This document shows positions 1,708 to 6,609 of a DNA stretch of 6,609 nt, piece by piece. Source of the DNA: Candidatus Mcinerneyibacteriota bacterium (GTDB lineage: Bacteria; Macinerneyibacteriota; Macinerneyibacteria; Macinerneyibacteriales; DSCS01); NCBI GenBank assembly GCA_016937175.1, contig JAFGWL010000060.1, positions 1 to 6,609 of the forward strand, in the 5' to 3' direction. A program made the translations under genes and the position numbers. The notes beneath the pieces were generated by a model, which made no database searches, was not told the DNA's origin, and saw nothing but the letters and a program-made list of their open reading frames with translations. The stretch's first letter is position 1, and each line of letters opens with the position of its first letter.

Positions 1708-1713
1708 CCTCCT
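1708..1713 (-). promoter_or_regulatory. Ribosome binding site that decides the start at 1701
   Basis: AGGAGG in minus-strand sense overlaps the last two bases of the lipA TAG stop codon (1712-1714). It favours the second of two consecutive ATG codons (1699-1701) by spacing and suggests translational coupling between lipA and the membrane protein gene. Confidence 0.7.
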
Positions 1714-2575
1714 AAACCGAGCATCCTCTGAACATCTCCCCGGCCTTATAAGAACTTCTGACCAGGGGGCCGCTGGCGGCATCTAAAAAGCCCATCTCCA
1801 GGGCTTTGGCACGGTACTCTTCGAATTTCTCCGGAAGAATATAGTCAGCTACGGGATAATGCTCTTTTGTGGGAGCCAGATACTGGCCTATTGTCAGCAG
1901 ATCGCATCCGGCCTTACGCAGGTCGGCAAAGACTCCGTAAAGCTCCGCGTCTGTCTCTCCCAGCCCGACCATGAGCCCCGATTTTGTTTTTATGGACGGG
2001 TTGATTGTCTTAGCCCTTGCCAGCAGCTCCAGAGAGCGTTCATAGACAGCTCCGGGGCGCACGGCTTCATACAGGCGGGAGACAGTCTCTACGTTGTGGT
2101 TGAGGACATCGGGCCGGGCGTCGAGAACTGTGTTCAAAGAATCGGAATCTCCCTGAAAGTCAGGGATCAGAACCTCGATCCCCACTCCCGGGTCGATCTC
2201 CCGGACTTTTCTGATGACAGAGGCAAAATGAGCAGCCCCTCCGTCGGGAAGGTCATCTCTTGTCACAGAAGTGATCACCACATACTTCAATCCAAGAGCC
2301 TTGACAGCTTCGGCTACATGCCGGGGCTCTTCCTTATCTAAAGGCTGCGGCTTCCCTTTGTTGACATTACAGAAGCGGCATCGCCGGGTGCAGGTATCTC
2401 CCATGATAAGAAAAGTCGCTGTTCCCCGGTTAAAACACTCCACCCGATTCGGGCAACGGGCTTCGCGGCAGACCGTATTCAAGTGGAGGTTTTTCATCAA
2501 GCGCCGTACCTTTTGCTCTTCTTCTGTGGGAATCTGTTTTGATTTCAGCCATTCAGGCTTTCTCCTGTCAACCAT
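1712..2575 (-). CDS. lipA: Lipoyl synthase (radical SAM)
   Basis: LipA inserts two sulfur atoms into octanoyl groups already attached to lipoyl-domain lysines of E2 subunits or glycine cleavage H protein, using two 4Fe-4S clusters and S-adenosylmethionine. The 287-residue product has every family mark: auxiliary-cluster cysteines in CX4CX5C spacing (C36, C41, C47), the radical SAM motif CX3CX2C (C62, C66, C69 in CTRRCRFC), the SAM-binding region TRGGDV-like segment [13 protein letters not shown], and the C-terminal RSSY motif (R273-Y276), whose serine ligates the auxiliary cluster. Length is normal for short LipA forms. The ATG at 2575 lies inside the end of lipB (8-bp overlap) with AAGGAG at 2581-2586 and a 5-nt spacer. 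The last residues (FRGCSV) add one extra cysteine of no known role. Confidence 0.97.
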
Positions 2576-3236
2576 CTTCTCTCCTTCTTTCTGTCACGGT
2601 CGACCCAAAGACACGGCTCAAAGTGTCGACGACTCCTTCAGTGACGGCATCAAAATCCTGTTTATCCCCTCTCTCTTTTTCAAGAGAGGTCACTTCCTTA
2701 TCTGTGATCCCGCAGGGGATGATATAGGAGAAGTGGCTCAGGTCTGTATTGATATTGAAAGCAAATCCGTGCATAGAGACAAAGTGGGAGACATAGACAC
2801 CGATGGCCGTGATCTTCCTGTTTTCGATCCAGACACCGATCTGGCCCTCGCCGGCTTCTGCCCTGATACCGCAGGACTCATCCAGATACCTGGTAAAGAC
2901 CTCTTCCAGGGTCTGGATATAGGCCTTGACGCCCAGCCCCAGCTCCTTGAGATGGAAGATGGGATACCCTACCAGCTGCCCCGGGCCGTGATAGGTCACA
3001 TCCCCTCCCCGGGTGGTCTGGATGACTTCGATCCCCCTGTCGGCGAGAAATTCCCTGGAAGCGACTACATTGGCTCCGGTACTGAACCGGCCCACAGTGA
3101 TCACCGGAGGATGCTCCACCAGGATAAGTGTATCGGGGACTTCTCCTTCCATGCGGAGCTGATGATATTTTTTCTGGACAGACAGAGCTTCCTGATAGCC
3201 GCATCGTCCCAACCGGACTACATGTAAAGGTCTCAT
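2568..3236 (-). CDS. lipB: Octanoyl-[acyl carrier protein]-protein N-octanoyltransferase
   Basis: LipB moves octanoate from acyl carrier protein onto lipoyl-domain lysines in the cytoplasm, making the substrate for LipA. The 222-residue protein carries the LipB signature [18 protein letters not shown] (76-93). It also has the catalytic lysine within NRKITAIGV (K141) and the acyl-thioester cysteine within IIPCGI (C175), so the Cys/Lys dyad is intact. The ATG at 3236 has a GGGAGG site at 3240-3245, only 3 nt upstream, so initiation may be modest. It is the first gene of lipB-lipA-(membrane protein) and has its own promoter just upstream. Having both LipB and LipA means lipoate is made de novo; no LplA-type scavenging ligase is in the window. 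Confidence 0.97.
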
Positions 3237-4530: not shown

Positions 4531-4559
4531 TTGACGCTTCCCTGCTTTTCTGTTATAAT
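4531..4559 (+). promoter_or_regulatory. Strong promoter of the amino acid ABC transporter operon
   Basis: The -35 TTGACG (4531-4536), a 17-bp spacer and a perfect -10 TATAAT (4554-4559) give a near-consensus sigma-70 promoter. The start is predicted near 4566, leaving a leader of about 130 nt before the binding protein ATG at 4697. Confidence 0.8.
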
Positions 4560-4565
4560 AACAAA

Positions 4566-4696
4566 ACCTAAAAATTCATAGCCTTCAAAACCTTTCTGAG
4601 GATAAGGGAATAATAACCGGGCAAAAGAGCCCTGCATCGTATGAAAATACGTAATGAAGATAGTTTTTAAACTGCAAATCAAAGAAAGGAGATATC
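4566..4696 (+). other. 5' leader of the ABC transporter operon with small hairpins
   Basis: This leader of about 130 nt contains three short perfect hairpins: GGGC-AAAAGA-GCCC (4619-4632), CGTAT-GAAA-ATACG (4638-4651, a GNRA-type loop) and AGTT-TTTA-AACT (4662-4673). The ribosome site AAAGGAG (4685-4691, 5-nt spacer) follows. I compared it by eye with glycine, lysine, glutamine (glnA), SAM and c-di-GMP riboswitch consensus features and T-box anti-terminators and found no match. It may be an unremarkable leader or an unrecognised control element. Confidence 0.4.
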
Positions 4697-5536
4697 ATGA
4701 CGCAAAAAGGATTGTGGATCGCTCTTCTGATCATCGTTTTCATCATCGCGGCCTTTTTCATTACCTCTGAAAGGAGTGAAAGAGGATTCACCGTGGCCGT
4801 GGTCACAGGGACGACTTTTGAAAAAGAAGCACGGCGCTTTCCCGGAGTCTCGGAAGTCAAGCTTTATGAAGACGACAATCAGACTCTCACGGAACTGGCC
4901 AACGGACGGGTGGATGCGGTGATCACCGACCGTCTGGTCGCCCTGACAGGGATCAAAAAGGGCGGCTATGATAATCTGAAGCTCGCCGGCGGCCTTCTCT
5001 ATTATGAGACCATCGGCGTGGCTCTGGGAAAAGAGGATGATGCCTTACGCCAGGCCATCAATAAAGCTCTGAACGAGATCATCGCCGACGGGACCTACGA
5101 GAAGATCAGCAAAAAATACTTCAATGCAGACATCCTCGAAGGGGTCGAACGGAAGATCACCTTCCCCGATGAACCGCAAGCTACCGATGGCTCATGGGCA
5201 AAAGCAAAAAAAAGGGGAGTTTTGAGCTTTGCCATGAGCGGCGGATATCCTCCCTTTAACTATTACAATGAGAATAACGAACTCACTGGATTCGATGTTG
5301 AGATCGCCGAAGCCGTCTGCGAAAGGCTGGGAGTCCGTTATAAGCCTGTGACCACAGCCTGGGACGGGATCATCGAAGGCCTTCGCGCCGGGCGCTACGA
5401 CGGGGTCTGGGGAAGCATGGCCATCACAGAAGAGCGTCTTGAGATCGTCGATTTTACCGATCCTTATTATGTCTCGGGAGCCCAGCTGGTCGTCCGGGAA
5501 GACTCCCCCATCACCGGTGCAGAGAGTCTGCGCTGA
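4697..5536 (+). CDS. Amino acid ABC transporter substrate-binding protein with circularly permuted SBP_bac_3 domain
   Basis: This 279-residue protein should capture a polar amino acid outside the inner membrane and deliver it to the permease encoded next. Residues 5-22 are a hydrophobic anchor with no lipobox cysteine and no clear AxA cleavage site. Residues 30-147 match the C-terminal half of HisJ/GlnH-like proteins: TVAVVTGTTFEKEA (32-45), NGRVDAVITD (69-78), then the usual terminal helix GTYEKISKKYF (132-142). After a linker (148-164), residues 165-279 match the N-terminal half: KRGVLSFAMSGGYPPF (172-187), GFDVEIAEAV (198-207), WDGIIEGLRAGRYD (222-235), ITEERLEIVDFTDPYY (243-258), ending after the first hinge strand at AESLR. 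The order is therefore swapped relative to the family. Likely ligand contacts remain: T39/T40, D78, Y184, W222, R247. The start is supported by AAAGGAG at 4685-4691, and the permease follows 23 nt after the stop. Confidence 0.92.
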   Translation: MTQKGLWIALLIIVFIIAAFFITSERSERGFTVAVVTGTTFEKEARRFPGVSEVKLYEDDNQTLTELANGRVDAVITDRLVALTGIKKGGYDNLKLAGGLLYYETIGVALGKEDDALRQAINKALNEIIADGTYEKISKKYFNADILEGVERKITFPDEPQATDGSWAKAKKRGVLSFAMSGGYPPFNYYNENNELTGFDVEIAEAVCERLGVRYKPVTTAWDGIIEGLRAGRYDGVWGSMAITEERLEIVDFTDPYYVSGAQLVVREDSPITGAESLR

Positions 5537-5559: not shown

Positions 5560-6210
5560 ATGGATTTGTCCAAGATCCTTACCTTTGTCCCCTATTTTCT
5601 TCCTGCAGCGTGGATGACTCTGAAGATCACCACCATGGGCATCCTCATAGGCCTGATGATAGGCTTTCCCATGGCTTTCGGACGCCTTTCATCCCGCCGC
5701 TGGATCTCACTGCCGGCAAAGGGCTATATCGCCCTGATCCGGGGAACCCCCCTTCTTCTGCAGCTCTTCGTCGTCTACTATGGCATGGTCCGGCTCGTGG
5801 CCCTGGACCCTCTTCCGTCTGCGGCCCTGGCGCTGGGCGTCCATAACGGAGCTTATATCGCCGAGATCATCCGGGGGGCTATCCAGTCTATCAGCAGGGG
5901 GCAAATGGAGGCAGCCCGCTCCCTCGGTATGACTCATATGCAGGCCATGCGCCGGGTCATCATACCTCAGGCCCTCCTCCGTGCACTTCCCCCTCTGGGA
6001 AACCAGTTTATCATCGCCCTGAAGGACTCTTCCCTGGCTAGTACCGTGACAGTCAGGGAGCTGGTCCTCACATCGCGCCAGCTGGCCTCTTCCAATTTTA
6101 TGATGATGGAGATGCTGGCCATTGCAGCAGTCTTCTACCTGATCCTCACAGGGCTCCTGACTCTCCTTGTGAATCATCTGGAAGTCAAGATGTCTGTGAG
6201 CCGGGCTTAG
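5560..6210 (+). CDS. Polar amino acid ABC transporter permease (HisM/GlnP-like)
   Basis: This 216-residue inner-membrane protein forms the transport channel, probably as a homodimer because only one permease gene is present before the ATPase gene. It shows the polar amino acid family mark RGTPLLLQLFVVYYG (61-75), the segment GAYIAEIIRGAIQSI (97-111), and the EAA loop EAARSLGMTHMQAMRRVIIP (117-136) that contacts the ATPase. Hydrophobic segments fit about five helices. Length is normal for the family. The ATG at 5560 has AAGGAGG at 5546-5552 with a 7-nt spacer. The substrate is not decided by the sequence; glutamine, arginine, histidine or cystine-type ligands are all possible. Confidence 0.95.
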   Translation: MDLSKILTFVPYFLPAAWMTLKITTMGILIGLMIGFPMAFGRLSSRRWISLPAKGYIALIRGTPLLLQLFVVYYGMVRLVALDPLPSAALALGVHNGAYIAEIIRGAIQSISRGQMEAARSLGMTHMQAMRRVIIPQALLRALPPLGNQFIIALKDSSLASTVTVRELVLTSRQLASSNFMMMEMLAIAAVFYLILTGLLTLLVNHLEVKMSVSRA

Positions 6211-6222
6211 AAAGGAGATCTC

Positions 6223-6609
6223 ATGAGTATGATCAAAATACGAAACCTCTACAAGAGCTTTGGAGATCTGGAAGTCCTCAAGGGCCTGGACCTGGATGTG
6301 GAAGAGGGGGAAGTGGTGGTCATCATCGGAGCCAGCGGATCCGGGAAATCGACTTTACTCCGTTGTATCAACTTTCTGGAAGAGAGCGACAGCGGAGAGA
6401 TATGGGTCGAGGATAAGCTGGTCCATCATACGGGCAGCGACATCAACGCCGTCCGTCAGGAAGTGGGAATGGTCTTTCAGCACTTTAACCTCTTTCCCCA
6501 CATGACCGTTTTGGAAAATGTCATTGAAGGGCCGGTCCAGGTGAAAAAAGTCTCTCGTAAAAAAGCCGTTACCCGGGCCCATGAACTTCTGGATAAAGTG
6601 GGATTGTCT
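6223..6609 (+). CDS. Polar amino acid ABC transporter ATP-binding protein, N-terminal 129 residues (partial)
   Basis: This is the cytoplasmic ATPase that powers the permease, cut by the window end. It begins MSMIKIRNLYKSFGDLEVLK, carries Walker A GASGSGKST (36-44; Ala in place of the common Pro) and the Q-loop GMVFQHFNLFPHMTVLENV (82-100, Gln86). The HFNLFPHMTVLEN stretch is typical of GlnQ/HisP-type amino acid ATPases. The signature motif, Walker B and H-loop lie beyond the window. The ATG at 6223 has AAAGGAG at 6211-6217 with a 5-nt spacer, the same arrangement as the binding protein gene, and starts 12 nt after the permease stop. All three genes form one operon. Confidence 0.96.
   Translation, partial: MSMIKIRNLYKSFGDLEVLKGLDLDVEEGEVVVIIGASGSGKSTLLRCINFLEESDSGEIWVEDKLVHHTGSDINAVRQEVGMVFQHFNLFPHMTVLENVIEGPVQVKKVSRKKAVTRAHELLDKVGLS

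Follow-up and report, generated by a model that had tools for sequence, protein, structure and literature searches.

The question raised by this locus is whether a gene that reads as the binding protein of an amino acid ABC transporter carries the two halves of its product in the reverse of the usual order, and, if it does, how such a protein arose and whether it could still serve its importer. SBP_bac_3 proteins, the family concerned, are among the commonest receptors of bacteria; they are a scaffold of choice for sensors, and engineers have permuted them. The window, that is, the whole stretch of 6,609 nucleotides analysed here, contains an open reading frame at 4697-5536 (coding letters 4697-5533), which specifies 279 amino acids and a stop. 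A sequence-only reading of this DNA had proposed that the gene is a natural circular permutation.

Order of the Two Halves

When the protein was searched against Pfam, PF00497 (SBP_bac_3) matched it in two stretches, with a total of 148.8 bits against a cut-off of 26.4. Profile positions 62-131 match the N-terminal half and positions 2-97 the C-terminal half; thus, two partial, non-collinear matches in reversed model order, as had been predicted, were found, and no single collinear one. NCBIfam models for LAO, cystine, glutamine, arginine and histidine binding proteins likewise fall on the protein in two stretches each. A further match, to PF12698 (22.6 bits, below its cut-off of 31.6), was put down to chance and to the hydrophobic N terminus. 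The parts of the gene are the following:

4697..5536, + strand: circularly permuted SBP_bac_3 protein (profile matches and rotation test)
4697..4783, + strand: amino acids 1-29, hydrophobic signal or anchor segment without a lipobox cysteine (from sequence; helix 3-24 in the model)
4784..5134, + strand: amino acids 30-146, the usual C-terminal half, with the lobe 2 core, the second hinge strand and the closing helices of lobe 1; TGTT (37-40) and Asp78
5135..5191, + strand: amino acids 147-165, linker between the former C and N termini (from aligning the three permuted proteins)
5192..5533, + strand: amino acids 166-279, the usual N-terminal half, with lobe 1, the first hinge strand (258-267) and a short return to lobe 2; Tyr184, Trp222 and Arg247

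The halves had been placed at residues 30-142 and 172-279, which is correct to within a few residues, and the linker, expected to have about 17-25 residues, has about 19. The new ends do lie just after the first hinge strand, as had been suggested. The idea that each lobe is contiguous holds for lobe 1 but fails for lobe 2, since residues 268-279, which include a short C-terminal helix, belong to the latter.

The order was also examined by rotating the protein in silico. Against 3vv5 (TTC0807), the best relative of known structure, the native protein aligns in reversed order (residues 166-274 with 28-136 of 3vv5, and 29-146 with 140-257), whereas the rotated version gives a single stretch (E 2.3e-54). 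In the same way, an ordinary homologue, L007, gives two swapped segments on the native protein (residues 29-146, 93 bits; residues 159-278, 151 bits) and one segment of 260 bits on the rotated one. Permuted homologues show the opposite behaviour, with one segment on the native protein and two on the rotated, and the shuffled window protein, used as a control, matches none of the same homologues. It is thus confirmed that the window protein belongs to the SBP_bac_3 family with its halves swapped, being a permuted derivative and not an ordinary member. Circular permutation is concluded from the reversed domain matches and the rotation test, together with the homologues sharing the order, the tree of single origin and the confident fold described below. 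The protein resembles ordinary SBP_bac_3 members (type II, or cluster F) in the homology of both halves and in its operon order, and differs from them in having the halves reversed, the old termini linked and the new termini placed after the first hinge strand.

Occurrence of the Permuted Form

A homologue scan of 84,980 species genomes led to 60 related loci, and among these every locus with both halves in one ORF is ordinary, except two. Thus, the search for homologues in the permuted order yielded two more genomes, matching end to end. The first gene (L005), from a genome titled Bacillota SpSt-1200 at NCBI, is permuted over its full length and 77% identical to the window protein (amino acids 1-278); it and L004, whose species belongs to the window's own genus, are one gene. 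The second (L006), from Spirochaetes MM_PW (Spirochaetota), is also permuted over its full length, with 62-63% identity.

The genomes in question are all drafts, the window itself being an entire contig of 6.6 kb, so that pieces of an ordinary gene might have been misordered during assembly or binning. However, the three separate genomes, at 62-77% identity, show the same order, the same cut and a linker of the same length. Moreover, an aminopeptidase neighbouring the spirochaetal gene is 72% identical to that of G087, a genome of the same order, and 45% to that of the window's genome, which indicates that this contig is truly spirochaetal. Taking into account that the order is common to independent genomes, an artefact was rejected and is considered extremely improbable.

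The permuted form is rare, with three species known, as the sample counts indicate. It occurs in 1 of 194 genomes from the order of L006 (G087 is included in this sample, and there is no permuted match in it outside G060) and in 1 of 392 from its phylum, the already known genome in both cases. In the small phylum of the window itself it is present in two of the three genomes sampled, and a wider sample of 386 relatives contains it in 2, both already known; two other genomes among these 386 gave half-length matches of the ordinary type only. This patchy presence in two phyla suggests horizontal transfer. No match was found when viral contigs and phages were searched for relatives, and the plasmid hits, among the matches listed, are two-piece matches below 60% identity. 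The nearest ordinary genes are L007, L008 and L029. Both halves are homologous to those of such ordinary cousins over their entire length, at about 60% identity (N half) and about 50% (C half).

Single Origin and Linker

In a combined tree of 58 proteins, the halves of which had first been set in a common order, the three permuted proteins constitute one clade (support 100/94) nested among ordinary relatives, its neighbours being ordinary Spirochaetota proteins and L007, from a Syntrophomonadaceae bacterium. The permutation therefore arose once, and fairly recently, given the identity of about 60% that ordinary relatives retain in the N half. When the halves were run apart, support was 92/92 for the N half and 67/0 for the C half, and both trees place the trio alike, beside Spirochaetota and L007, so that a single ancestral gene is the probable source of both halves. 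The trio is also united in the permease tree (99/98); the ATPase tree is unresolved and does not unite it, the window's ATPase being cut by the contig end.

The linker region of the window reads DILEGVERKITFPDEPQATDGSWAKAKKRG, that of L005 DIMLDVTRPVTFPNEAPASDDSLEKVLKEG and that of L006 DILAGLDRPTTVPGEAAATDNSLTEAKNRG, with conserved length and partly conserved sequence. At its start it matches the C terminus of ordinary members (..DIS/T.. followed by the stop), and its end resembles, in L006 and L005, the N terminus of mature L007 (GDNSLERVKNVG). In a shuffle test this likeness is significant for L006 (0/200) and L005 (1/200), and not for the window. Furthermore, in L006 a signal peptide of spirochaete type (VFAAGQKEAEG, similar to TFAQGQKEDVD of the ordinary L013) stands directly before lobe 2. 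Together, these features would be the pattern expected from a head-to-tail duplication, or fusion, after which the outer halves were lost. A tandem duplication of this kind, already put forward in the sequence-only reading, finds support in the linker piece of the two relatives, and is plausible though unproven: we only infer it, because no trace of the missing lobe 1 was found upstream of the gene, either in the window or in L005. In the region upstream of L006, a match of 21 residues was dismissed as chance (20.4 bits, against 19.6 for the best shuffle, and with in-frame stops).

It could be argued instead that the halves of two different binding-protein genes were joined by domain shuffling, with no permutation of a single gene. 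The weak union of the trio in the C-half tree and the roughly 15 linker residues for which no source is apparent would agree with this, but both half trees lead to the same ordinary group, the clade is firm in the combined tree, and of the linker ends one (DI) recalls the C terminus of ordinary members and the other, in L005 and L006, the beginning of mature L007. Such a joining is thus held to be quite unlikely, and permutation of a single gene is preferred.

Predicted Structure and Path of the Chain

An AlphaFold2 model of the window protein (pLDDT 94.8, pTM 0.85) was obtained from an alignment of the three permuted proteins with unpaired split halves of ordinary proteins; due to this lack of pairing, the geometry between the lobes rests on what the network itself knows of this fold. 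Against the PDB, Foldseek gave for this model either half-length matches of high identity, as with ArgBP 4prs (92 columns, 1.6 Å, 40% identity), or long ones of low identity, as with ArgBP 6ggv (176 residues, 3.1 Å), the latter being expected because the lobes are pseudo-symmetric. End to end, the best VIA-align Z was 13.1, with 12% identity, versus 31.7 in the control, in which the ordinary homologue L007 was folded and compared likewise (3vv5, 230 residues, 1.5 Å, 33% identity).

According to this model, the chain would start with the segment that in ordinary relatives comes after the first hinge crossing, lobe 2 being built first, and the second hinge strand would then take it across to lobe 1. 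The 19-residue linker at the old C/N junction and the rest of lobe 1 would follow, and the first hinge strand would bring the chain back to lobe 2. The permuted chain would thereby have both its ends in lobe 2 and lobe 1 in between, following the type II path with the roles of the lobes exchanged, and the N-terminal tether or signal would now connect to lobe 2 and not to lobe 1.

Operon Context

The surroundings of the gene contain the following elements:

4531..4559, + strand: sigma-70-like promoter TTGACG-17-TATAAT upstream of the permuted gene (11 of 12 consensus positions; consensus match only)
4685..4691, + strand: ribosome binding site AAAGGAG (from sequence)
5560..6210, + strand: amino acid ABC transporter permease, BPD_transp_1 (PF00528, 85.6 bits)
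6223..6609, + strand: ATPase of an ABC transporter, truncated at the contig end (PF00005, 84.4 bits)

The promoter, ribosome site and downstream transporter genes had been described as intact, and the near-consensus promoter, the AAAGGAG and the profile matches of permease and ATPase bear this out. The gene order, binding protein-permease-ATPase, is that of ordinary relatives.

The N terminus is hydrophobic in the three permuted proteins and has the look of an ordinary signal peptide in L006 only. Unlike L006 and the ordinary relatives, the window (4697-4783) and L005 (357-440) have neither a lipobox nor a clear cleavage site in this segment, and the window protein may be held by an uncleaved N-terminal helix. 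No Rfam family matched the leaders of the window and of L006, the folding energies of which are unremarkable; several long hairpins are seen in the leader of the L006 operon (5690-5990, folding energy z -0.95).

Ligand Residues, Selection and Function

Arg247, TGTT 37-40 and Asp78 align with main-chain-binding residues of 3vv5 and AncQR. From established knowledge of LAO and GlnH, we take these residues to be those that hold the amino acid main chain, and Tyr184 and Trp222 to occupy the positions of the aromatic residues in contact with the side chain. The amino acid would be trapped between the closing lobes, with Arg247 and TGTT on its carboxylate, Asp78 on its amino group, and Tyr184 and Trp222 against its side chain, and would then pass to the adjacent permease/ATPase.

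Comparison of the window with L005 gives dN of 0.084 and 0.108 for the two halves, with synonymous differences of 61-75%, near saturation, and a weaker constraint in the linker and anchor than in the halves. Judging from these values, the permuted coding sequence is under purifying selection, strong in both halves. Apart from the permuted gene, the window's genome contains a single full-length ordinary SBP_bac_3 gene, a distant one (23-35% identity by half), and two partial matches to the family, inside ORFs of 834 and 940 amino acids. No close ordinary copy of the permuted gene was found in this genome, and the permuted protein is therefore probably the sole receptor of its importer.

Taking these data together, we hold with high confidence that the gene encodes the solute-binding protein of an ABC importer for polar amino acids and is a natural circular permutant, and the protein probably works as the binding protein of that importer. 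It might also have left transport, as a sensor, a scavenger or the product of a decaying gene, or be active only as a domain-swapped dimer. Swapped elements have been described for engineered permuted ribose-binding protein constructs (PMC10601554). Nevertheless, a loss of the transport role is at odds with the purifying selection, the intact ligand residues, the operon order kept as in ordinary relatives and the lack of a close ordinary paralogue as replacement. These possibilities are regarded as unlikely, if slightly less so than the joining of two genes, and a working receptor is preferred.

Comparison with Known Permuted Binding Proteins

Tp0684 (MglB-2, TpMglB-2) of Treponema pallidum, solved in 2016, is a natural circular permutation of a sugar-binding protein of type I (cluster B), which binds glucose and changes conformation; its authors proposed the class 'type Ic', found in spirochaetes and others, and asked whether tethering had favoured the permutation (PMC4990184). 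Both cases are natural permutations of a clamshell ABC binding protein. However, Tp0684 is cut inside the N lobe, with its first three strands moved to the C terminus, a fourth hinge crossing added and weak sequence similarity in the moved part (PMC4990184), whereas the window protein has the type II fold, is cut elsewhere and has close ordinary cousins that survive. Nor is it of 'type Ic', its binding-protein family matches being to SBP_bac_3 and related type II models only.

Within the family, the LAO-binding protein has been permuted artificially for FRET sensors, the inter-domain connection being cut and the old ends joined by a 12-residue (GGS)4; the permuted sensor still bound lysine, with about 36-fold lower affinity (PMC5087393, after Okada et al. 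2009). The present case differs from that man-made protein in being natural and conserved, and in its linker of about 19 residues as against 12 (PMC5087393). The sequence-only reading knew of no natural case in the family, and none in SBP_bac_3 was found in the open-access papers searched; within these papers its statement stands for the family, although the wider superfamily has Tp0684/MglB-2 (PMC4990184).

We incline somewhat to the view that this is the first natural circular permutation among type II amino acid binding proteins, with one origin, spread between phyla along with its operon, exchanged roles of the pseudo-symmetric lobes, a tether now on lobe 2 and an unpermuted permease that still accepts the protein. 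Nature has here rewired a very common fold, predicted still to take the usual clamshell form, as engineers had done by hand, and the idea that the pseudo-two-fold symmetry of the clamshell permits an exchange of lobe roles gains support from sequence. The permutant and the ordinary proteins closest to it (about 60% identical over the N half, with a similar neighbouring permease) form a matched pair, with which it can be asked whether the choice of tethered lobe matters, and whether folding, ligand affinity, docking or lobe closure depends on chain order.

Some minor observations concern the neighbouring DNA. Downstream of the permuted operon of L005 (3272-4599) there are two tandem genes resembling outer-membrane beta-barrel proteins, which, in a genome labelled Bacillota, hint at a two-membrane cell. 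On the minus strand of the window, positions 1-633 contain the start of tuf and four tRNA genes (Thr-GGT, Gly-TCC, Tyr-GTA and Thr-TGT), an ordinary tRNA-tuf cluster, and positions 1712-3236 contain adjacent genes that read, from sequence, as lipoyl synthase and lipoyl(octanoyl) transferase.
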